NCBI GenBank assembly: GCA_018828145.1
Contig: JAHJWO010000042.1
Coordinates: 62,001 to 126,000, forward strand
Direction: 5' to 3'
Source: Alphaproteobacteria bacterium
GTDB taxonomy: Bacteria > Pseudomonadota > Alphaproteobacteria > Rhizobiales > Devosiaceae
Length of the DNA: 64,000 nt
The first letter of the stretch is position 1, and the number at the start of each line of letters is the position of its first letter. The position numbers and the translations under genes are program-made. Below, piece by piece: positions 5,347-64,000 of the stretch. The notes beneath the pieces are model-generated. The model saw nothing but the letters and a program-made list of their open reading frames with translations. It had not been told where the DNA came from and ran no database searches.

Positions 5347-5724
5347 TTACCCCTGCGGCACCGGCGCAGCCTCATCCAGCACGCTCGCCACGCCCTCCAG
5401 GGTCCTGGCGGCTTCGCTTAGCCTCGCGGCAAACTGGCCCTCCAGCGCCTCGATCTCGGCCGCGACTTCCTGGCCAGCCCGCGTCAGCACCAGAACGTCG
5501 TTTTCCAGTGCCTTGATCTTGCGTTCGGCCTCGGCCAGTTCGTCCACCACGGCAATGCCGGCCATCACCGTCAGGCGGTTGTCGCCGATCTCGCCGACCG
5601 CGCCCTTGAGCTGTTCGACATGGGTGTTGAACCGCTCGGCCAGCCCGATCAGGTGCTGCTGCTGGCCCTCTTCGCAGGCCATGCGGTACTTGCGGCCATT
5701 GATCTCGACATTGACTTCGGGCAC
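5347..5724 (-). CDS. zapA: cell division protein ZapA
   Basis: A 125-residue ZapA-family protein that should bind and bundle FtsZ at the division site. The N-terminal domain is recognised from VEINGRKYRMACEEGQ and the following LAERFNTHVEQLKG; the rest (about residues 60-115) is a long amphipathic coiled coil used for dimer and tetramer formation. The start is taken as GTG at 5724, because GGCGGAG precedes it and the family usually begins a few residues before the first strand. It follows a DUF4164 gene with a five-base gap. Confidence 0.88.
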   Translation of the reverse strand: MPEVNVEINGRKYRMACEEGQQQHLIGLAERFNTHVEQLKGAVGEIGDNRLTVMAGIAVVDELAEAERKIKALENDVLVLTRAGQEVAAEIEALEGQFAARLSEAARTLEGVASVLDEAAPVPQG

Positions 5725-5728
5725 CGCG

Positions 5729-6016
5729 CTACTCCGCCTTGGCCAAAACTTCGCGGACGGTTTCCATCGCCTCGACCAACCGGCGCGACACGTCATGCGC
5801 GCTGTCGTCGAGCCGCTTGGCCCGCGCCGCGGTCTTGTCGAGTTCGGTCGCCAGCCGGGCGCGTTCCTGCACCAGCCGCTGCGTATCGACTTCGATGCGG
5901 TTCTGCTGGCGCATGCGCGTGCCGAGATTTTTCACGCTCTGGTCCAGCCGCGCCATGGCGCGATCGAACCGCGCGGTGGCGGCGGTCAGCCCGTCCTCAA
6001 GTTCCGTCTCACTCAT
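5729..6016 (-). CDS. DUF4164 coiled-coil protein
   Basis: A 95-residue, highly charged, almost entirely helical protein, DUF4164-like, found directly upstream of zapA in many Hyphomicrobiales. Heptad patterns run from about residue 10 to 90 (LTAATARFDRAMARLDQSV onward). No enzymatic motif is present. The position suggests a role connected with ZapA and the divisome, but that is only an inference from gene order. Confidence 0.8.
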   Translation of the reverse strand: MSETELEDGLTAATARFDRAMARLDQSVKNLGTRMRQQNRIEVDTQRLVQERARLATELDKTAARAKRLDDSAHDVSRRLVEAMETVREVLAKAE

Positions 6017-6222
6017 TGCTACTACGGTCCTCAGCGTGCGACGATTCCAGCGCTTGCAGCGTGCCCCAGCACCGGCCGTATTGCAACCGGCACGCCACGC
6101 GAAGCGGTGGGCCTTGTCATTGACACGATAGGCGAACCTGTTATGCCTCGAACCCGCCTTTGGGAGGAGGCTTCTGGCGCCTCTTCTCCCCAGATTTCAG
6201 CCCTGACGAAAGCGCGAGCCCG

Positions 6223-8196
6223 ATGACGAACACCGCCCAGCAGAACGACTTGGCCAATGCGATCCGTTCCCTCTCCATGGACGCGGTCGAAAAAGCCAAT
6301 TCCGGCCATCCCGGCCTGCCCATGGGCTGCGCCGACATTGTGACGGTGCTGTTCACCAAGGTGATGAAGTTCGATCCCGCCGACAGCAAATGGGCTGACC
6401 GCGACCGCTTCATCCTCTCGGCCGGCCACGGCTCGATGCTGCTCTATTCCTCGCTCTACCTCCTGGGCTACGAGGACATGACCATCGACCAGGTCAAGAA
6501 TTTCCGCCAGCTTGGCTCCAAGACCGCCGGCCACCCGGAATACCATTTCGCCCAGGGCATCGAGACCACGACCGGCCCGCTCGGCCAGGGCCTCGCCAAT
6601 TCGGTGGGCTTTGCCGTTGCCGAAGCCAAGCTTGCCGCCGAATTCGGCGCGGACCTCGTCGATCACCACACCTGGGTCCTGGCCGGTGACGGCTGTCTGA
6701 TGGAAGGCATTTCCCAGGAAGCCATCGCGCTGGCCGGCCACCTCAAGCTCAACAAGCTGACCGTCATCTGGGACAATAACTCGATCACCATCGATGGCGC
6801 CGTCTCCAACTCGGACAGCACCGACCAGATCGCCCGTTTCAAGGCCGTGCAGTGGAACACCATCGAAATCGATGGCCACGACCAGGACGCCATCGAAGCC
6901 GCCCTGCTGGCCGCCAAGAAGAGTGACAAGCCGACCCTGATCGCCGCCAAGACCACGATCGGCTTTGGCGCGCCCAAGAAGGCCGGCACCGAAAAGGTGC
7001 ATGGCGCCCCGCTCGGCGCCGAGGAATTGGCCGGCGCCAAGGCCGCGCTGGGCATCACCTATCCCGCCTTCGAAATCCCCGCCGAAATCCTCAACACCTG
7101 GCGCGCCGCCTGTACACGCTCGCAGAATATCCGCGGCGAATGGCAGTCCCGCCTCGCCGCCTCGCCGCACAAGGCCGAGTTCGAGCGCCGCATCAAGGGC
7201 GACCTGCCGGCCGACTTCAAGTCCGCCATCGACGCCTTCAAGAAGAAGCTGGTCGAGGACAAGCCCAAGGTTGCGACCCGCAAGTCCAGCCAGATGGCGC
7301 TCGACGTCATCAATGCCGCCCTGCCCGAAACGCTGGGCGGCTCGGCCGACCTGACCCATTCGAACCTGACCAATACCAAGGAAATGGTGCCCTTCCAGGC
7401 TGACAACCGCCTCGGGCGCTACATGATGTATGGCATCCGCGAGCACGAAATGGCCGCGGCCATGAACGGTGTCGCCCTGCATGGCGGCCTCATTCCCTAT
7501 GGCGGCACCTTCATGGTCTTTACCGACTATGCCCGCCCCGCCATCCGCCTCGCCGCGCTGATGGAACAGCGTGCCATCTATGTCATGACCCATGACTCGA
7601 TCGGCCTGGGCGAAGACGGCCCGACGCACCAGCCGGTGGAACACCTGACCGCGCTGCGCGCCATTCCGAACCTGCTGGTCTTCCGCCCGGCCGATGCCGT
7701 GGAAGCCCTCGAATGCTGGCAGCTGGCGCTGGAATCCACCACCGCGCCGTCCATCCTGGCCCTGTCGCGCCAGAACCTGCCGGCCCTGCGCACCGAATAC
7801 CAGGCCGAAAACCTCTGCGCCAAGGGCGCCTATGTCATCGCCGGCGACAAGAATGCCGATGTCGTGATCTTCGCGACGGGCTCGGAAGTTGCCATCGCCG
7901 TCGAGGGCCTCAAGCAGCTGGCCGAACAGGGCATTGCCGCCAAGGTCGTGTCGGTGCCGTCCATGGAACTGCTGGCCAGGCAGTCCGACGCCTACAAGGC
8001 CGAGCTCTACGGCAATGCCAAGGCACGCGTCGCCATCGAGGCGGGCATCGAGATGAGCTGGAGCAAGCTGCTGGGCGACAAGGGCCGCTTTGTCGGGATG
8101 AACAGCTTCGGCGCTTCCGGCCCGATCGATGCGCTCTACGAGCACTTTGGTATTACGGCCATGGCCGTGGTTGAAGCTGTCACAGCACAGTTGTAA
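6223..8196 (+). CDS. tkt: transketolase
   Basis: Transfers two-carbon ketol units between sugar phosphates using thiamine diphosphate (pentose phosphate pathway). The protein has 657 residues, a normal length. Visible motifs include SGHPGLPMG near the N-terminus, the ThDP motif [13 protein letters not shown]...[17 protein letters not shown] in the central domain and [17 protein letters not shown], which holds catalytic histidines. The ATG at 6223 gives the usual N-terminus. Upstream, TTGACA (6120-6125) with TTATGC 15 bases later is a possible promoter with short spacing. It heads the tkt-gap-pgk-fba cluster of central carbon metabolism. Confidence 0.97.
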
Positions 8197-55061: not shown

Positions 55062-55910
55062 TCAGGCCTGCGGCGCCGCGTCGATCAGCCTGGCCCGGAT
55101 GCGGCGCGAGATGTTGTCGATGATCGCAACGGTGACCAGGATCATCAGGATGATGAAGGCCGCTTCCTGCCAGTTGTTGATGCGCATGCGGTCCGACAGC
55201 TGCAGCCCGATGCCGCCCGCCCCCACAATGCCCAGGATCGTGGCCGACCGGACATTGGACTCAAAGAAGTAGAGCACGTGGCTCATCATCACCGGCAGGA
55301 CCTGCGGAAACACGCCCAGCCGCATGACATGGGTGTCATTTCCGCCAGCGGCGCGAACCCCCTCCACCTGCTTGGTTTCGACATTCTCGATGGCTTCGGC
55401 AAAGAGCTTGGCGAAGATCATCAAGTCGCCCACCGCAATGGCCAGCACGCCGGCAAACGGCCCCAGCCCGACGGCGGAAACGAAGATCAGCGCCCAGACC
55501 AGCCCGTCAATGCCGCGGAAACCGTCATAGATGCGGCGCAGCCCGAAGTGGAACAGCCAGTTCGGCATGACGTTCTTGGCGCCGAGAAAGCCCAGCGGGA
55601 CGGCGAGCACCGCAGCGATGATTGTGCCGAGGAATGCCATGCCAAGCGTTTCGAGCATGGCGTGGACATAGTCCCAGAAGCCGTCGCCGGGATGGGGCGG
55701 GATCATCAGGCTAACCAGCAGCCCCAGCTTGTTGAGACCGTTGACGATCCGCATGGGATTGGCATCGACCCACCACAGCCCATAGGCCAGAGTGCCAACA
55801 AATCCGAGCCAGAGAGCCCAGGTCCTGACCCGCGTGATCAGCGGAGTGGAAAACAGTTCCGGATTGCTGCGGCGCAGGCGCGCCATTTCGCCATAGGTGA
55901 TGGTGTTCAT
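55062..55910 (-). CDS. phnE: phosphonate ABC transporter permease PhnE (second copy)
   Basis: A 282-residue permease with five or six helices. The EAA loop that contacts the ATPase is in AIENVETKQVEGVRAAGGN. It pairs with the preceding permease gene, which ends one base upstream. The S. meliloti phoCDET system has the same layout and carries phosphate and phosphonates. Confidence 0.93.
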   Translation of the reverse strand: MNTITYGEMARLRRSNPELFSTPLITRVRTWALWLGFVGTLAYGLWWVDANPMRIVNGLNKLGLLVSLMIPPHPGDGFWDYVHAMLETLGMAFLGTIIAAVLAVPLGFLGAKNVMPNWLFHFGLRRIYDGFRGIDGLVWALIFVSAVGLGPFAGVLAIAVGDLMIFAKLFAEAIENVETKQVEGVRAAGGNDTHVMRLGVFPQVLPVMMSHVLYFFESNVRSATILGIVGAGGIGLQLSDRMRINNWQEAAFIILMILVTVAIIDNISRRIRARLIDAAPQA

Positions 55911-55911
55911 G

Positions 55912-56820
55912 TCAGTGCCCTGCCTGCATGTCCTGCCCGATCAGCCGGTGGCGGATCGTCTCGCAGGTGATGTCGATGATGGAAGTGGTGGCGATCAGCA
56001 AAAGCATGATGGCCGAGATGTCGGTATATTCGAACTGCCGGATGGCGACATAGAGCTCCTGCCCGATGCCACCGGCGCCGACAATGCCGAGAGCGGAGGC
56101 GCCGCGCACATTGATTTCGAAGCGCAGCAGCAGGTAGCTGGCATAATTGGGCAATGCCTGGGGCACCACGCCCAGCCGCATCAGCATCGGCCAGTTGCCG
56201 CCGGCGGCACGGACACCCTCGATCGGCCGCGGATCGACATTCTCGTTCACTTCGGCAAACAGCTTGCCCAGAGAACCAGCCGTGTGCACCGCAATCGCCA
56301 GAACGCCGGCGAAGGGGCCAAGCCCGAAGGCGAAGACGAAGATGAGGGCAAAAACCAGCTCCGGCACGGTGCGCAGGAATTCAAGGCTCCGCCGTGCCGC
56401 AAAATAGATGCCCGTATTCTCCACCAGATTGCGCGAGGCCGGGAAACACAGCAGCAAGGCGACCAGGCCACCGAGCACGGTGCCAACAAAGCCCATCAGG
56501 ATAGTCTCGACCAGAAGGCGCAGCCAGAAGCGCAGCCCCCAATACCAGTCGGCAAGATCGGCACCGAGTGTCTCAAGCGAGAGACTTGGCAAGGTTCCGA
56601 CAATGTAGTTCCAGGCCTTGGGCAGGCCGTTCATCAGGCCGTTCAGATTGAAGTCGCTGACGACGATCGAGCCGGCCAGGGCAATGGAGAAGAGACCGAA
56701 TTGCAACAGGGTCCAAAGCCGCTTGCGGCGACGTTCTGCGGCAAAGCGCTGCTCGAATGCAACCAGCCGCTGCGGCCGGCCGGCGGCAAAGCCACCCTCT
56801 GAATGTCCCATCGTGGTCAT
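55912..56820 (-). CDS. phnE: phosphonate ABC transporter permease PhnE (first copy)
   Basis: A 302-residue permease with one extra N-terminal helix. Its EAA loop reads VNENVDPRPIEGVRAAGGN. AAGGA lies before the ATG at 56820. Together with the second PhnE it should form the heterodimeric membrane channel. Confidence 0.93.
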   Translation of the reverse strand: MTTMGHSEGGFAAGRPQRLVAFEQRFAAERRRKRLWTLLQFGLFSIALAGSIVVSDFNLNGLMNGLPKAWNYIVGTLPSLSLETLGADLADWYWGLRFWLRLLVETILMGFVGTVLGGLVALLLCFPASRNLVENTGIYFAARRSLEFLRTVPELVFALIFVFAFGLGPFAGVLAIAVHTAGSLGKLFAEVNENVDPRPIEGVRAAGGNWPMLMRLGVVPQALPNYASYLLLRFEINVRGASALGIVGAGGIGQELYVAIRQFEYTDISAIMLLLIATTSIIDITCETIRHRLIGQDMQAGH

Positions 56821-56888: not shown

Positions 56889-57812
56889 TCAGTTGCCGCC
56901 GGTGCGACGACGTTCCTGCGCGTTAAACTCGGTGATGGCGACCACGTCGAGATAGTCTTCGAGCTTGGCTTCGACATAGCCGCTGGAGGTGCCATTGGTG
57001 TAGGTGGCGAAACCCTCCGGGTTCTTTTCCGGGAAGGCGAGCAGCGCCGTCTTGAAGGCGTCCTGCAGTTCCTGCGGCAGGGTGGTCAGCATCATCACGG
57101 GAGTGTTGGGGATGATGGGCGAGGTCCAGATGATGCGGGTCGAGCCGGCGGGGATCAGGCCCTTCTTTTCCATGTTCTGGATATTGCCGGCTTCTTCATT
57201 GCGCCAATGGGTGGCGACGGCCTCGAACGTGCCGTTGACGAGCGCCATGACGCTCTGCTCATGGCCACCCGAGAAGGCGACTTCGCTGAAATATTCGTCG
57301 GCGCTGACATTGAGTTCGGTCGCCAGGTAGTAGGACGGAACGGCATAGCCCGAGGTCGAGTTCGGATCGGCAAAGGCAAAGGACTTGCCCTTGATGTCTT
57401 CGAGCGTCTGGTAGTCGCTGTCGGCGCGCACGGCGATCACCGAGTGGTAGCCCAGGTTGCCTTCGTTATCGAGCGTGACGGCGACGGGAGCGATGTCCTC
57501 GCCCATCACCTTGCGGGCCAGTGCATAGGCGGCCGGACCGACCGAGGCGAACTGGACATGGCCCGAACGCATGGCCTCGATGACGGCGGCATAGTCGGTA
57601 CCGCGCACGATCTTGACCGGTACGCCGAGCTCGGCGCTCAGGTAGTCGGCATAGGGCTGGGTGCGGGCGATGGCGTCGGTTTCGTTCTCGCTGGAGGAGA
57701 TACCGATGGTCAACTCGGGGAACTGCTCGCGCCAATCCTGGGCGACGGCGACGGAAACGAGGGCGGCCGAGATCAGTACGGCCGCAATGCTGCGGCGCAC
57801 GAGGGTAAACAT
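56889..57812 (-). CDS. phnD: phosphonate ABC transporter substrate-binding protein
   Basis: A 307-residue periplasmic protein with a signal peptide (FTLVRRSIAAVLISAALVSV, cleaved near VAQ). Binding-site landmarks are GTDYAAVIEAMRSGHVQFAS, and FADPNSTSGYAVP, the PhnD phosphonate loop. It delivers phosphonates (or phosphate/phosphite) to PhnE-PhnE. Confidence 0.94.
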   Translation of the reverse strand: MFTLVRRSIAAVLISAALVSVAVAQDWREQFPELTIGISSSENETDAIARTQPYADYLSAELGVPVKIVRGTDYAAVIEAMRSGHVQFASVGPAAYALARKVMGEDIAPVAVTLDNEGNLGYHSVIAVRADSDYQTLEDIKGKSFAFADPNSTSGYAVPSYYLATELNVSADEYFSEVAFSGGHEQSVMALVNGTFEAVATHWRNEEAGNIQNMEKKGLIPAGSTRIIWTSPIIPNTPVMMLTTLPQELQDAFKTALLAFPEKNPEGFATYTNGTSSGYVEAKLEDYLDVVAITEFNAQERRRTGGN

Positions 57813-57850: not shown

Positions 57851-58681
57851 CTAGATCGCGTCGGCCATTTCGGGTTGCACGACGGGTTTTGCCGGCGCGT
57901 AGACGGCGCCCATGGTCGAGGTCAGGCTCTCGTCCACGGCGCTTTCCGCATCCCCGCCATAGATCTGCTGGATCACGCGGGATGTGAGTTGGGCGGGAGG
58001 ACCATCGAAGACGACATGCCCCTGGGCCATGCCGACGATGCGGTCACAATAGGCGCGGGCCGCATCCAGCGTATGCAGGTTGCAGATGATGGTCATCTTG
58101 TCCTGCTGGTTGATGGTGCGCAGAGCCTCCATGACCAGCCGCGCATTGCGCGGATCAAGCGATGCGATGGGCTCATCGGCGAGGATCAGCTTGGGATTCT
58201 GGATCAGGGCACGGGCAATGGCCACGCGCTGCTGCTGCCCGCCGGACAGCGTATCGGCCCTTTGCAGCGCCTGCGGCAGCAGGTCCAGACGATCGAGGGC
58301 CAGCGCCGCGGCGGCACGGTCGGCGGCAGAAAAGTGCTTGAACATGACCGGCATGGTGCCGAGATAGCCGATGCGGCCGATCAGGACATTGGTCAGCACA
58401 TCAAGCCGGTTCACCAGATTGAACTGCTGGAAAATCATCGCGCAGCGGGCACGCCATTCGCGCAGGGCCTTGCCCGAAAGCGCGGTAACATTGGCGCCCT
58501 CGAAGACAATATCCCCACTGCCTGAAGTGGCGAGGCGGTTGATCAGGCGGAGAAGGGTGGATTTGCCTGCCCCCGACCTTCCGATAATCCCCACCATCTG
58601 GCCGGGTTCGAAGCTCAGCGACACGTTGTTGACGGCGATGGTTTCGCCGAAGGCCTTGGTGATCTTGCGAAGCTCTAGCAC
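57851..58681 (-). CDS. phnC: phosphonate ABC transporter ATP-binding protein
   Basis: A 276-residue ATPase: Walker A IIGRSGAGKSTLLRLINR, signature TLSGGQQQRVAIARAL, Walker B LILADEPIASLD. The FQQFNLVNRLDVLTNVLIGR segment is typical of PhnC. It begins a block phnCDEE, 83 bases after phnM; the gap holds a palindrome and a Pho-box-like half-site. Confidence 0.95.
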   Translation of the reverse strand: MLELRKITKAFGETIAVNNVSLSFEPGQMVGIIGRSGAGKSTLLRLINRLATSGSGDIVFEGANVTALSGKALREWRARCAMIFQQFNLVNRLDVLTNVLIGRIGYLGTMPVMFKHFSAADRAAAALALDRLDLLPQALQRADTLSGGQQQRVAIARALIQNPKLILADEPIASLDPRNARLVMEALRTINQQDKMTIICNLHTLDAARAYCDRIVGMAQGHVVFDGPPAQLTSRVIQQIYGGDAESAVDESLTSTMGAVYAPAKPVVQPEMADAI

Positions 58682-58764: not shown

Positions 58765-59959
58765 TCATCCGAATGACATGCTCGTGACGTTTGCGGCCCG
58801 GTGCGCGGCAATGGAGCCGTCGGAGTAGATCACCCGGCCCTTGCTCAGCACGCTGCGCACATGGCCCACCCCGCTATCGTCGGCAATGATGAGGTCGGCG
58901 CGAAGCCCGGCGCGGATTTCCCCGCGATCCTCAAGGCCCAGCGACCGCGCCGGATTGAGGGTGACCAATCGAGCCGCCCCCGCCAGTCCCATCGGATCGG
59001 TCTTGGCCAGCACCAGCACGGCCGGCAGCATGGCGGAGGGATGGTAATCGGCCGCCAGCAGATCAAGCAGACCCGCGGCATGCACGTCGCGGGCCGACAG
59101 GTTGCCGGAATAGGACGTGCCGCGCAGCGCATTGGGGCGCGCCCATGGCATTGAGCATGCCGCGACGCCGGGCCTCCCGTGCCGCCTCGATCGTCACAGG
59201 AAATTCGCTGATATTGGCGCCCAAGCCCTGCATCAGGGCCACCTTTTCCACCGTATCGTCGTCGTGGCTTGCCAGCGGCACGCCATGCAACGCGCAATAT
59301 TGCGCAATGGCGCGCAGCGTCTCGGTCAGGTCTCCCGCCGATTCCCGCCGCTCGCGAATGCGCTGCTGCAGGTTTTCGGCAGCCTGTTCGAGCGATATGC
59401 CCTTGGCCTTGGCCGCCATTTCCGCCTGCTTGGCGAGATCGCGATATTGCCCCTGTCCCGGCGTGTGATCGCACAGCGAGATGAGATCCACCGATCCCTC
59501 CGCGATCAGTTCCTTGACCACCGACAGGGCGGCCGGAAAGGTCACTTCAAAGCGGGCATGCACGCGATGATCGACCAGCAGGTCCTGCGCATAGGTGCGC
59601 AACGCGCGGATCATCTGGCTGGTGAAGTCATAGGACCGCATGTGCCCATATGTGGAGCCGGGGCTAAACGACACGGCGGCATAGGCCGTGGTGATGCCCG
59701 AATTGGCCAGCCGGCGATCGAGGTCCCGCAGACCGAGTTCCATCGGCATGCGCACATTGGGGCGGGGCTCCACCTCGCGCTCGATCATGTCGCCATGCAT
59801 GTCGATCATCCCCGCCATCAGGATCAGGCCATTGCCCTCGATATCGGCATTGGCCACCGGCGCCTCGCCGATTTCGGCGATCTGCCCACCCTCGATGCGC
59901 AGGGCTCCCCGCTCGATGACGCGGTCGGCCAGGACGATACGGAAATCAGACAGCCACAT
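58765..59959 (-). pseudogene. phnM: phnM, RPnTP hydrolase, split by a +1 frameshift
   Basis: PhnM removes diphosphate from ribose-1-phosphonate-5-triphosphate in the C-P lyase pathway; it is an amidohydrolase. The 5' part (59959 down to about 59135) encodes a normal start, MWLSDFRIVLADRVIERGA, the metal motif IDMHGDMIE and SLCDHTPGQGQYRD. At a run of four C (minus strand; plus 59134-59137) the frame changes. The continuing homologous sequence, PNALRGTSYSGNLSARDVHA, is in another frame, to 58765. Removing one C restores GAPNALRG exactly. The gene is otherwise full length (about 397 residues). It could be a real mutation, a phase-variable site or a sequencing error. The start overlaps the phnL stop by 14 bases. 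Confidence 0.88.
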
Positions 59960-60683
59960 GGGTCAGCTCGCTTGCAGCAGGAACGGGATGGGTCGCGAGA
60001 TCAATCTCGCGATCGATGAGATCGGCAACGTCGCCGGGGTGATGAAACACCCCGACAATGGCAACGCCCGCGGCCTTGAGATCGCCCAGCCGGCGCACCA
60101 GCGCCCGGCGTGCCCCGACATCGAGCGAGGCGGTGGGTTCATCCAGCAGCAGCAGGCGCTGCGGCAGGATCAGTGCCCTTGCCAGGTTGACCTTTTGTTG
60201 CTCGCCACCGGAAAACGTGCTGGGATAGGCGCGCCACAGCTCCGGACGCACGCCGAACTCGCCCAGCCAGTGCCGCGCCTGCTCCAAGGCGTCATCGGGC
60301 GCATAGCCGGCCAGCCGCAGTGGCTCGGCCACGATATCCTGCGCCGCAACGCGCGGGCGGGCATTGAGGAACTGCGTCACAAAGCCGATTTCCTGCCGCC
60401 GCAGCAGCGCGATATCGACGTCCGCGGCCCGCGCCAGATCGATCGTGCCGAACCTGGACTGGTACCAGATATGGCCCGCGACCGGCAGATAGCTGCGCCA
60501 CAGCGTGCGCAGCAACGTCGACTTGCCGGCGCCATTGCGGCCCTTGAGCAGCAGGAATTCGCCTTCGTGCAGATCAAAGCTGATGCCCTCGAAGGCGTGC
60601 AGCATGCTGGCGAGATGGAACATGGCAAAGGTCTTGCCGAGGCCTTCGACACGCAGCAGCGGCGGATGTTGGTTCTGTGTCAT
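59946..60683 (-). CDS. phnL: C-P lyase complex ATPase-like protein PhnL
   Basis: A 245-residue ABC-type protein. Walker A is LLKGRNGAGKSTLLRTLW, signature STFSGGEQQKVNLARAL, Walker B LLLLDEPTASLDVG. PhnL associates with the PhnGHIJ core and PhnK. It overlaps phnM and follows phnK by eight bases. Confidence 0.93.
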   Translation of the reverse strand: MTQNQHPPLLRVEGLGKTFAMFHLASMLHAFEGISFDLHEGEFLLLKGRNGAGKSTLLRTLWRSYLPVAGHIWYQSRFGTIDLARAADVDIALLRRQEIGFVTQFLNARPRVAAQDIVAEPLRLAGYAPDDALEQARHWLGEFGVRPELWRAYPSTFSGGEQQKVNLARALILPQRLLLLDEPTASLDVGARRALVRRLGDLKAAGVAIVGVFHHPGDVADLIDREIDLATHPVPAASELTHVAV

Positions 60684-60691
60684 TGCGGCCC

Positions 60692-61513
60692 CTAGAGCTT
60701 GGCGTGAACGAGTTGCTGGGTATAGGGGTGCTGGGGGTCCTGGAAAACCTGGTCGGCCAGGCCCTGCTCCACCACCTCGCCATGCCGCATCACCAGCACC
60801 CGATCGGCCATGGTGCGGATGACGCCAAGGTCGTGGCTCACCAGCACCATGGTGATATTCCGATCCCGCTGCAGGCGCTTCAGCGTATCGAGCACCAGCG
60901 CCTGCACGCTCACATCGAGCCCCGTGGTCGGCTCATCGAGCAACAGCAGCGCCGGCTCCAGCGCAATGGCCTTGGCCAGCTGCACCCGCTGCTGCATGCC
61001 GCCCGACAGCTCGGCCGGCCGCGCATCCATGCGCGAGAGCGGAAATTCCGACGCATCGAGCGCATCGCGCGCCTTGCTGCGCAGCACCTCAAAGCTGCGC
61101 TCGCCGGCGATCAGCAGCCGCTCGGCGACATTGCCGCTCGAACTATGCCGCATCAGCAGCCCCAGATGAGGGTTCTGATAGACGATGCCGATATGATGCG
61201 CGCACAGCATGCGCCGCTCATAGCGTCCGAGGTCAAACAGGTTGCCGTCGTCGCGCCCCCGCAGCCGAAGGCGATAATCGCCCCGGTCCGGCGTGTCCTC
61301 GAGGTTCATCATGCGCAGCAGCGTCGACTTGCCCGAGCCGCTCTCGCCCACAATGCCCAGCACTTCACCGGGATAGACGGTGACGTCGACATTGCGCAGC
61401 GCCCGCACCTCGCCATAGTGGCGCGTCACGCCGCGCATGCTGAGCAGCGCCTCGGTCTGCATCAGCTGCGGCGGCAGCAGCGGAGCCGGCGCCATGGTCA
61501 TGTCGATGCTCAT
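60692..61513 (-). CDS. phnK: C-P lyase complex ATPase PhnK
   Basis: A 273-residue ABC-type protein. Walker A GIVGESGSGKSTLLRMMN, signature AELSGGMQQRVQLAKAI, Walker B LLLLDEPTTGLDVSVQA. The C-terminal DPQHPYTQQLVHAKL matches PhnK. The segment between Walker A and the signature differs from E. coli PhnK (HHIGIVYQNPHLGLLMRHSS), in keeping with the divergent PhnJ it would contact. I use the ATG at 61513, which overlaps the phnJ stop by four bases. Confidence 0.9.
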   Translation of the reverse strand: MSIDMTMAPAPLLPPQLMQTEALLSMRGVTRHYGEVRALRNVDVTVYPGEVLGIVGESGSGKSTLLRMMNLEDTPDRGDYRLRLRGRDDGNLFDLGRYERRMLCAHHIGIVYQNPHLGLLMRHSSSGNVAERLLIAGERSFEVLRSKARDALDASEFPLSRMDARPAELSGGMQQRVQLAKAIALEPALLLLDEPTTGLDVSVQALVLDTLKRLQRDRNITMVLVSHDLGVIRTMADRVLVMRHGEVVEQGLADQVFQDPQHPYTQQLVHAKL

Positions 61514-62424
61514 GCCGAATACTCCCCGTTTTCGTACCAGGTGGCGCCGATCTCGACCGCTTCGCCCTCGGCCCGGCGGATGGCCTTGATGCCCAGATTG
61601 CTGTCGGAGACTTCGAACACCGACCCGCCACTGTCCTGCGGAATCTCGTTCATGAAATAGCCGGCAATGCCGGAGCGGCGGCACACCAGATCGGCATGAT
61701 CCTCGACACGATAGGGCCGGTCCGAAAACACCAGCGGCTCGACACGTGTAAAGGGCGGCACGGCATGCAGCCGCTTCTCGCGCCCGGCCGACAGGAAGGT
61801 CAGGTGCCTGGCCATGTTGAGCTTGGGCACATCCCAGCGCGGGATCGGCGATGGCGTCATCACATGCCGTCCGTTGACCAGGCTCGGATAGGCGGCGCCC
61901 TGCATGATGCGGCCCTTGCGCACGAGCTGCTCATAGAGCGTCAGCCACAGCCGGCCATAGTCGGCATCGGCATGCATCTGCCGGGCGATCGACATATTGG
62001 GCTCCACCCCGCGCAGCGGCTCGGGATTGGGCACCTGCAGCACGAGGATCTGGTCCTCGCGCATCGTCTCTTCCGGCACGCGATGCCGCGACTGGACGAT
62101 CGATGCATCGAGCGTGTCCCAGGTCTCGGCAGCCCCCGAGACGCGGCTGATGAAGCGGCGGATCGAGGCGGCGTTGACGCCATCGTCAGCGCCCTGGTCG
62201 ATGACCTTGATGGTCGATTGCGGATTGACCAGTGTCAGCGTGACCTGGAGGCCCCCCGTGCCCCAGCCGCGCGCCATCGGCACTTCGCGGCTGGCATAGG
62301 GCATCTGGCAGCCAGGCACGGCGATGGCCTTGAGCATCTTGCGGCGCAGTTCGCGCTTGGCCGATGCGTCGAGAAAACCATAGCTGGTGGCAGCCCAGGG
62401 CTTGGTGAGTGCAGCAAGGGTCAT
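61510..62424 (-). CDS. phnJ: PhnJ-like C-P lyase subunit lacking the iron-sulfur cysteines
   Basis: A 304-residue protein aligning with C-P lyase PhnJ along its whole length: YGFLDASAKRELRRKMLKAI, WGTGGLQVTLTLV, KVIDQGADDGVNAASIRRF, PSPIPRWDVPK and AGREKRLHAVPPFTRVEPL. Gly38 matches E. coli Gly32, proposed radical site. However, by my alignment E. coli Cys241, Cys244, Cys266 and Cys272 correspond to Val247, Arg250, Val272 and Gly278. Only Cys39 and Cys248 exist in the whole protein. The reading frame is continuous and homologous on both sides (GYFMNEIPQDSGGSVFEVSD), so this is not a frameshift. Radical-SAM C-P cleavage as known in E. coli is therefore doubtful. It is coupled to phnI and phnK by four-base overlaps. 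Confidence 0.9.
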   Translation of the reverse strand: MTLAALTKPWAATSYGFLDASAKRELRRKMLKAIAVPGCQMPYASREVPMARGWGTGGLQVTLTLVNPQSTIKVIDQGADDGVNAASIRRFISRVSGAAETWDTLDASIVQSRHRVPEETMREDQILVLQVPNPEPLRGVEPNMSIARQMHADADYGRLWLTLYEQLVRKGRIMQGAAYPSLVNGRHVMTPSPIPRWDVPKLNMARHLTFLSAGREKRLHAVPPFTRVEPLVFSDRPYRVEDHADLVCRRSGIAGYFMNEIPQDSGGSVFEVSDSNLGIKAIRRAEGEAVEIGATWYENGEYSA

Positions 62425-63512
62425 TCTGCGGGCTCCGTCTGGCGTTCGACCGCCACATCTTGATTGGCTTTGGCAGCGGCCGCCTTGGCCTTGGCATCGC
62501 GCATGGCGTCCAGCACCGACTGGAAGGTGACGTAGTGCGGCAGCTTGAAGTGGATGCAGAAGCCCGAGGCTTCGACGCTTTCGGTATGGGAGAGATAGAA
62601 TTCCTCATGCACCGGCGAACCCACGGGCGCTTCCGCCGAATTGAGATCAAGCGTTGCCGCGGCGATCACCTTGACCTCGTTCCAGCCAAAGCTGGCGGCA
62701 AAACCGAGCTCAAGAAAGCCGCCCTTCTCCTTGGACGTCACCTCGGCCTGGCAGACCCGCACCCGGCCCGCCGAAAACTCGGTGCCGCTCGGATGGCGCA
62801 CCATCACTTCGGCTTCGGCGAGTCGCAACTCATTGACCGTGGGATGGGCATTGCCATAGCCGCGCATTGCCGCATAACCAAGCGCCAGCACGCCACCCGT
62901 CTCCGCCCGCGCCAGGCTCTGCAGCCGATGGGCGCGCGAGGCGGGAAACAGCAGCGGTTCCCGCGTCAGGTCGGGGATGTCATCGGGCGCGACAGTGCTG
63001 TCATTGGCCGGGGCCACCAGGCCCTGCTGCCGCTGCCAGTCGGCCAGCGACGGCTGCCGCATGGGCGCCGCTGTTGCCGCCGGATCCACCGATGGCGGAT
63101 TGTAGGGCTTGCCCTCGAGCACATCGGTCGCCAGCACACGGTGGGAATAATCCAGCGTCGGCCCGAGGATTTGCCCGCCCGGAATATCCTTGAACGCCGC
63201 CGAGATGCGCCGAACCGTCAGCAGGTCCTCCTGCAGCAGCGGCGCAGCGACCGCCAGGCGCGGCTGGGTGGTGCGCCAGGCGCGCAGTACCAGCACGGCC
63301 TCGGAGAGTTCGCCCCCGGTTTGCGCCAGCGCCAGGGCCGCCATGTCCTCGTCATAGAGCGAGGCTTCGCCCATCACGCGGTCGACGAGATAGGGCATGG
63401 ACTGCCGGATCGCCTCGACGCGGGCGGCGTCGATCGTGCCCAGGTCCTGGCGGAACAGGCGCTCGGCCTGCTCGATGGCCTTTTCGCCACCGCGGGTTGC
63501 GACATAGGCCAT
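62421..63512 (-). CDS. phnI: C-P lyase complex subunit PhnI
   Basis: A 363-residue PhnI. Landmarks: YVATRGGEKAIEQAERL, EAVLVLRAWRTTQPRLAV, ISAAFKDIPGGQILGPTLDY, LALGYAAMRGYGNAHP and FCIHFKLPHYVTFQSVLD. PhnI with PhnGHL attaches methylphosphonate to ribose of ATP, releasing adenine. Its ATG follows the phnH stop directly. Confidence 0.94.
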   Translation of the reverse strand: MAYVATRGGEKAIEQAERLFRQDLGTIDAARVEAIRQSMPYLVDRVMGEASLYDEDMAALALAQTGGELSEAVLVLRAWRTTQPRLAVAAPLLQEDLLTVRRISAAFKDIPGGQILGPTLDYSHRVLATDVLEGKPYNPPSVDPAATAAPMRQPSLADWQRQQGLVAPANDSTVAPDDIPDLTREPLLFPASRAHRLQSLARAETGGVLALGYAAMRGYGNAHPTVNELRLAEAEVMVRHPSGTEFSAGRVRVCQAEVTSKEKGGFLELGFAASFGWNEVKVIAAATLDLNSAEAPVGSPVHEEFYLSHTESVEASGFCIHFKLPHYVTFQSVLDAMRDAKAKAAAAKANQDVAVERQTEPAE

Positions 63513-64000
63513 TCAGAGCACCTCTATCTGGGTGGAGCGGGGAATGCCGATAACCGAACGGCCGTCGACAAGCAGCAGGTCAAAGCCTTCGGGATAGGCA
63601 CAGAGCTGTTCGCGCATGGCCCAGAATTCGGCCGGCAAGGCGAGCGCCATGTCGCGCGCGCCGTCGATGCCGGGGCCAGTCAGGCGCAGCCGCTGGCCGG
63701 AGCCATGGGCAACCTGCGCGACGAGCGTGGCACCATCGTCGGGATAGAGCGCACTGCCGCACCGAATGCCGGCCAGCGCATCCGACGCCCCCTCCAGACG
63801 ATCGAGGAACAGATGGTCTGCCGTGGCCGGATCACCCAGAACCGCGCCGGTATCGGCAATCTGCCGGCTCAGATCCGGACTATCCGCATAGGCCACGCAT
63901 TCGCGGTCGATCAGCGCTTCGACGATGGACGTCAAGCCGGCTTCGGGCAGTTCGCGCACATCGCCCGGCCGGGCCATTGACCACATCAGGGCTTCGAACG
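63513..64000 (-). CDS. phnH: C-P lyase complex subunit PhnH, 5' end outside window
   Basis: At least 162 residues are visible; the frame stays open to the edge with FEALMWSMARPGDVRELPEA, matching the PhnH N-terminal FR.LL.ALARPG motif, so the true start is just outside. The C-terminal GFDLLLVDGRSVIGIPRST matches the family end (PRTT/S). PhnG would be expected next upstream but is not in the window. Confidence 0.9.
   Translation of the reverse strand, partial: FEALMWSMARPGDVRELPEAGLTSIVEALIDRECVAYADSPDLSRQIADTGAVLGDPATADHLFLDRLEGASDALAGIRCGSALYPDDGATLVAQVAHGSGQRLRLTGPGIDGARDMALALPAEFWAMREQLCAYPEGFDLLLVDGRSVIGIPRSTQIEVL

Follow-up and report, generated by a model that had tools for sequence, protein, structure and literature searches.

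We analysed a 64,000-nucleotide stretch of DNA (the window) that carries a phn operon on its minus strand. The phnJ gene is an uninterrupted open reading frame, continuous as a preliminary description of this DNA had stated, and it encodes a PhnJ homologue of 304 amino acids. This protein scored far above the cut-off of 25 bits for the Pfam PhnJ model (Table 1) and so belongs to the PhnJ family; no NCBIfam model matched it at an E-value of 0.001, and NCBIfam may have no PhnJ model. The window PhnJ is 94% identical to that of Devosia sp. FKR38 (named relatives, best 80 of 545), which makes the host Devosia-like. The genes are arranged in the order phnF-G-H-I-J-K-L-M-C-D-E-E, with phnF and phnG just beyond the window edge on the same contig, and phnJ and phnI overlap by four bases. 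All the genes of the C-P lyase complex (phnGHIJKLM) are present, with phnM frameshifted in the window genome.

Table 1. Features of the phn operon in the window (positions are those of the window)
Feature	Position	Strand	Evidence and remarks
phnJ, cysteine-poor type	61510..62424	-	PF06007 374 bits; 94-member group
PhnJ residues 240-285, former Fe-S domain	61570..61707	-	C248 (= C241) kept; S251, V272, G278 replace C244, C266, C272
Codons Gly38 (= E. coli Gly32 radical site) and Cys39 (E. coli Tyr33)	62308..62313	-	Gly 94/94, Cys 89/94
phnI	62421..63512	-	PF05861 352 bits; zinc ligands H219, H328, H333 kept; Cys at E. coli 326
phnH, continues past window edge, 178 aa in total	63513..64000	-	TIGR03292 100.8 bits, cut-off 91.5
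phnK, ABC ATPase	60692..61516	-	best match TIGR02323 227 bits, below cut-off 302.85; motifs intact in relatives
phnL, ABC ATPase	59946..60683	-	best match TIGR02324 220.8 bits, below cut-off 256.3
phnM, two frames (59063-59959 and 58765-59151)	58765..59959	-	one frameshift
phnC, phosphonate ABC transporter ATPase	57851..58681	-	TIGR02315 329 bits
phnD, phosphonate-binding protein	56889..57812	-	TIGR03431 283 bits
phnE, first permease	55912..56820	-	TIGR01097 260 bits
phnE, second permease	55062..55910	-	TIGR01097 282 bits

The neighbours of phnJ had been described as complete. This held for phnI, phnK and phnL, and for phnH when followed past the window edge, but phnM is split by a frameshift near position 59130, at a run of C. 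As phnM is in one frame in all four relatives compared, the break is a sequencing error or a recent mutation. We also observed that the PhnI profile weakly matches phnG (26 bits; G000:C36:126148-126456, and like places in other genomes), which may point to a domain common to PhnG and PhnI. Upstream of phnF in locus L158, a gene that looks cysteine-synthase-like by eye lies at 5397-6656 on the minus strand; a 69% identical counterpart occurs near the operon in Aliiroseovarius (L122), one of 80 loci.

The window PhnJ contains two cysteines, C39 and C248, and no others, as had been reported. The preliminary description had further claimed that Val, Arg, Val and Gly occupy the positions of the four cysteines C241, C244, C266 and C272 of E. 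coli PhnJ. In a phmmer comparison with E. coli PhnJ (4XB6/7Z15) and in the family alignments, however, C248 aligned with C241, and the loss of all four cysteines was thus rejected. The other three are missing, with S251 in place of C244; the assignments of V272 and G278 stand, while V247 and R250 each lie one residue before the aligned position.

We aligned 152 distinct PhnJs with MAFFT, and found that 58 carry C241, C244, C266 and C272, while 94 carry C241 alone of these four. In the cysteine-poor set, C241 is present in 94/94 proteins and C244, C266 and C272 in none. Position 244 is Ser in 92 and Thr in 2; position 266 is Val (56), Leu (21), Ile (8), Ala (5), Met (3) or one other; and the thiyl position 272 is Gly in 90, Ala in 3 and Met in 1. 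Position 243 is Arg in all 94, compared with 3/58 of the four-cysteine proteins. The cysteine-poor type therefore differs from E. coli PhnJ in keeping C241 only and in having Arg at 243 and Ser or Thr at 244 throughout. A cysteine adjoins the radical-site glycine (C39; Tyr33 in E. coli) in 89 of the 94, Tyr or Ser taking its place in Thermus and in four proteins (L040-L043) that are the first-branching rows in the alphaproteobacterial part of the PhnJ tree. Four of the 94 proteins have one cysteine in total. These counts were sorted by residues; a first sorting by best BLAST hit had put a four-cysteine protein (L045) in the cysteine-poor set. We read the cysteine state directly from the sequences of the 152 alignment rows and of four more proteins, namely those of Thermus SNM1-1 and Microvirga (cysteine-poor) and of Mesobacillus and Methylibium (four-cysteine); in the genome searches, score and identity decided the PhnJ type.

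We then asked where the missing cysteines could have gone. Alignment columns that are more than half cysteine number none in PhnG and PhnL, one each in PhnI, PhnK and PhnM, and two in PhnH; PhnJ has two, C39 and C248. No replacement cluster is visible in these columns, from PhnG to PhnM, and a move of the cysteines to another subunit was rejected on these counts. The possibility that equivalent cysteines had been shifted is thus realized for one residue, C241. In Thermus HB8, PhnG, PhnH and PhnI are free of cysteine and PhnJ contains one, and a single cysteine in the whole GHIJ core is too few for the cluster as described.

Searches with the window protein showed a score gap, the cysteine-poor type scoring 479–687 bits and other PhnJs at most 301. 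By score, the cysteine-poor type was found in 16/397 genomes of the order, 2/385 of the class and 5/398 of the phylum, the last all Alphaproteobacteria, and in 23/75 genomes of the genus (two with a partial gene); each of these counts includes the window's own genome. The best 80 of 545 relatives come from Devosia, Nitratireductor, Agrobacterium, Paracoccus, Pannonibacter, Marivita, Salipiger, Maritalea and others, and as only these were retained, relatives less than 76% identical are under-represented in this set. The 79 distinct PhnJs from these 80 loci include none with the four cysteines. The order phnI-J-K-L-M is kept in 80/80 of these loci (best 80 of 545), phnF to phnM in 75 and phnF to the two phnE genes in 64, some loci being truncated at contig ends. 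A cysteine-poor clade with its own phnGHIKLM, which the preliminary description had set as a test, thus exists. Plasmid carriers, by identity, are Nitratireductor, Haematobacter, Mesorhizobium, Sinorhizobium sp. B11, Rhizobium and Microvirga; the plasmid PhnJ sequences of Nitratireductor and Microvirga were read and are cysteine-poor. Viral contigs gave no match. Plasmid pVV8 of Thermus thermophilus HB8 carries a phn operon with a cysteine-poor PhnJ, and the phn operon of T. thermophilus SNM1-1 encodes a PhnJ that is 85% identical to it, with one cysteine in each.

Many Rhodobacteraceae operons are adjoined, on the other strand, by a second phnM-type gene, often with its own phosphonate-type transporter genes (L077, L083, L085, L086, L090, L102, L112 and others). 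The one in L090 scores above the PhnM cut-off, and a methyltransferase gene lies nearby in L077 and L090.

In an IQ-TREE tree of the 152 rows using all columns, the cysteine-poor rows fall on one side of a branch with an SH-aLRT of 90. In a tree built without the C-terminal domain the corresponding branch has an SH-aLRT of 83; this tree has 100 rows, 41 cysteine-poor (35 of them randomly drawn) and 59 four-cysteine, two rows having been dropped where the cutting motif was missing. Both were quick runs, and in both the Thermus branch was flagged as long, so that its join may be false. By these trees, in which the support for the group is moderate, a single origin of the cysteine-poor PhnJ is favoured. 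The nearest rows to the clade are three PhnJs, from Thiothrix (L162) and two further genomes (L045 in G374 and L168 in G1097), yet all three keep the four cysteines.

Next, we considered how the gene is maintained. The dN/dS of the window phnJ against ten relatives is 0.07–0.13, and the median over 55 pairs is 0.090, indicating purifying selection; the four-cysteine phnJ copies of the genus gave 0.056 (12 sequences, computed on anchored, ungapped sequences). Sequencing error or decay of a single copy was rejected given this ratio and the 94 distinct sequences. Within the gene, the former cluster region changes more rapidly than the remainder (median pN/pS 0.239 versus 0.094) and is still constrained. 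The preliminary description had also raised a normal second phnJ as an explanation. Such a gene is present in the window genome (G000:C28:191-1006; 494 bits; four cysteines), on a short contig that also carries phnG, phnH, phnI, phnM and phnN. Other genomes, however, have only the cysteine-poor type. Among the 75 genomes of the genus, 15 have both types, eight only the cysteine-poor (one of them 78% complete), 31 only the normal one and 21 no PhnJ. Of the 23 carrier genomes then known, nine lack a normal PhnI, two of the nine being from another family, and we therefore rejected the idea of an accessory subunit of the normal complex. We consider it highly probable that the cysteine-poor PhnJ is a real, selected branch of C-P lyase.

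The rest of the machinery closely resembles Phn(GHIJKL)2 of E. coli (4XB6, 7Z15-7Z19): all the subunits are present in the order GHIJKLM, and the PhnJs are 46–47% identical. The radical-site glycine and the core motifs of PhnJ are retained, as the preliminary description had found, and Gly38 (= Gly32) is invariant in the 94 cysteine-poor proteins. Excerpts of PMC9947105 describe an E. coli zinc site made of PhnI H328 and H333 (with H219 when open), and residues of PhnJ (R107, H108, Q124 and loop 47-50) that hold a ligand modelled as 5-phosphoribosyl 1,2-cyclic phosphate; growth of E. coli on phosphonate needs both H328 and H333. All these PhnJ residues are kept in 94/94 cysteine-poor proteins, and PhnI H219, H328 and H333 in 90/90 PhnIs that accompany the type. 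The Walker A, signature and Walker B motifs are intact in the PhnK of 80/80 and the PhnL of 79/79 relatives, and among 77 PhnMs the motifs HxD, SHDD and DHxPGQ were found in 76, 73 and 60, respectively.

The predicted model of the window PhnJ (pLDDT 68.6, pTM 0.75) has E. coli PhnJ as its first match (7z19/4xb6; TM 0.70–0.71 on the query), and its former cluster domain appears confidently folded, with a pLDDT of 81–91 per ten-residue block over 241-300. An AlphaFold model of PhnI with a pLDDT of 50 was set aside. Thus, the likeness to the E. coli core extends to the predicted PhnJ fold, the zinc-site and ligand residues and the ABC motifs.

Two further features of the cysteine-poor type set it apart from E. 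coli, an extended C terminus and a PhnI cysteine two residues before H328 (C326), which is found in 91/92 PhnIs. We asked whether C326 could stand in for the thiyl cysteine. The position is Ala in both Thermus PhnIs, and C326 is already present in two four-cysteine relatives, the two PhnIs read for the three nearest rows of the tree. C326 is therefore not tied to cysteine loss, and it was rejected as the replacement. New histidines at PhnI positions 191 and 237 were set aside, since 237 shifts between alignments and Thermus lacks H191.

Turning to the downstream pathway, we found at least one PhnN above cut-off in all 49 genomes tested. At least one extra PhnN occurs in 7/7 genomes of the genus with only the cysteine-poor type, in 10/11 with only the normal type and in 0/15 without PhnJ. 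In the five cysteine-poor-only Devosia genomes read, the extra phnN and the cysteine-poor operon stand back to back, and in the four scanned a TIGR03308 acetyltransferase gene follows this phnN. Both genes are constrained (dN/dS medians of 0.123 for the extra phnN and 0.082 for the TIGR03308 gene, 5 genomes). This association suggests that a ribose bisphosphate is still an output of the cysteine-poor pathway. The association may reflect one event, since the seven Devosia genomes with only this type group together as a single clade in the PhnJ tree. Beside the extra phnN, a redundant normal-type phnM survives as a remnant in D. subaequoris, and none was found in L072. A TIGR03308-like family, of which one member was scanned, occurs at 51 of the 80 loci (best 80 of 545), mostly after the phnE genes. 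In these 80 named loci (best 80 of 545), phnO and phnP gave no match and phnN lies beside the operon in six. PhnP was above cut-off in 0/23 genomes, five of which have a full-length weak match of 50–56 bits. A DUF1045 gene was considered as an alternative marker. It is present in 30/30 genomes (including G002, G004, G007 and G013), four of which have no PhnJ, and so says nothing about the C-P lyase pathway. In several genomes it lies ~1–2 kb from a PhnN gene, and the two together may have a role unconnected with C-P lyase.

As three of the four cysteines held to be essential are lost while the zinc pocket and the ATP motors are kept, the enzyme probably works differently from the textbook one. 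We tentatively propose that it is an old C-P lyase branch that dispensed with the iron-sulfur/thiyl half, kept the zinc half and uses a non-radical mechanism. The order of the steps would be that of the E. coli pathway. PhnCDE would import a phosphonate-like compound, PhnGHI would join it to ribose taken from ATP, and PhnM would trim the triphosphate. Opening and closing of the complex would fall to PhnK and PhnL. The 2'-OH of the ribose would attack the phosphorus at the Zn/His site that lies between PhnI and PhnJ and displace the substituent directly, and the product, 5-phosphoribosyl 1,2-cyclic phosphate, would be converted to ribose bisphosphate and, via PhnN, to PRPP. We infer that the cyclic phosphate forms at the zinc site by direct displacement, because the clade keeps this ligand-bearing site and cannot build the cluster as described. 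Since no carbon radical would be made, the substituent would have to be a leaving group in its own right, so that the likely substrate is an activated phosphonate, or a compound with a P-N or P-S bond, and not methylphosphonate. The cysteine-poor type, present in Alphaproteobacteria and Thermus, may then be a naturally occurring C-P lyase that works without iron-sulfur cluster, SAM or radical and, driven by zinc and ATP, removes phosphorus from activated phosphonates or P-N/P-S compounds through 2'-OH attack. Several observations count against this reading. Gly32 is invariant, and a non-radical enzyme has no obvious need for that glycine; partial relaxation would equally give the faster evolution of the cluster domain; PhnP is above cut-off in none of the 23 genomes; and the window phnM is frameshifted.

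The invariant glycine and C241, together with the new cysteine beside the glycine in most members, leave room for an enzyme that still cuts unactivated C-P bonds through a Gly38 radical started in another way, by a separate activase, a differently held cluster or a C248/C39 thiyl. In the same excerpts of PMC9947105, Gly32 of E. coli lies ~30 Å from the putative cluster site and 31 Å from the zinc, and how the distant cluster reaches the glycine is unexplained by the structures. A comparison is offered by the glycyl radical enzymes that have a separate activase. The cysteine-poor PhnJ is like them in its invariant glycine, next to a cysteine in most members, and unlike them in its fold, which is that of PhnJ, and in the result of a search for the PFL-type partner: such activases (TIGR02493, TIGR02494) were above cut-off in 0/9 genomes that rely on the cysteine-poor type, the best sub-threshold radical-SAM match reaching 68 bits against 231.75, and none was among ten neighbour families scanned. 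As C39 is also absent from Thermus and the early-branching L040-L043, we consider a radical started otherwise unlikely, and a start in trans less likely than displacement at the zinc site.

The cysteines lost are among those named as catalytic in E. coli PhnJ in the available part of PMC11978286, and the parts of the machinery for ribosylation, trimming and ATP hydrolysis remain conserved. Both would suit a catalytically dead PhnJ in a complex that only ribosylates phosphonates, for storage, detoxification or priming, and cuts no P-X bond. We regard this as improbable: the PhnJ ligand residues are invariant, and ribosylation alone leaves unexplained the association with phnN, a downstream sugar-phosphate enzyme kept beside the operon in strains without another C-P lyase. 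The same ribosylation logic might instead serve another substrate class, e.g. sulfonates, arsonates or a nucleotide-derived compound. PhnD is the most divergent protein between subclades (~34–43% identity between the window and Rhodobacteraceae loci, compared with 76–85% for PhnJ), and the imported compound may accordingly vary. The window PhnC, PhnD and PhnE, however, score above the cut-offs of phosphonate-transporter models, and a change of class seems decidedly improbable. A decaying copy temporarily kept beside a normal C-P lyase would fit the normal PhnJ and the broken phnM of the window genome, but it is very improbable and already contradicted for the clade, because this copy is the sole one in other genomes and under purifying selection, in a gene order conserved across the named loci.

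The excerpts of PMC11978286 describe two major PhnJ clades, with four conserved cysteines in the proteins studied. In the available portions of other papers, phosphonate genes on Thermus pVV8 were noted (PMC5529391), phn genes in Devosia were surveyed (PMC6981132) and sequences were filtered by essential residues (PMC9381506); the last step might have dropped the cysteine-poor type. Among the matches listed from the open-licence full-text literature, no description of a cysteine-poor PhnJ was found, and subscription papers may report one. The accessible text of PMC8774927 counts phnJ (KO K06163) as a methane step, e.g. in Marivita, and the cysteine-poor PhnJ occurs in genomes of Marivita (L123), among them the SBSPR2 assembly that this paper names.

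The mechanism of C-P lyase is unsettled, the putative cluster site, the radical glycine and the zinc pocket of the E. coli enzyme lying apart from one another (PMC9947105). A clade without the cluster site and with the zinc pocket separates these two halves and makes the question of mechanism testable, and Thermus is an organism in which this could be done for a cysteine-poor C-P lyase. If the proposed non-radical mechanism is true, a C-P lyase that dispenses with radical chemistry is today counted as methane-producing phnJ.
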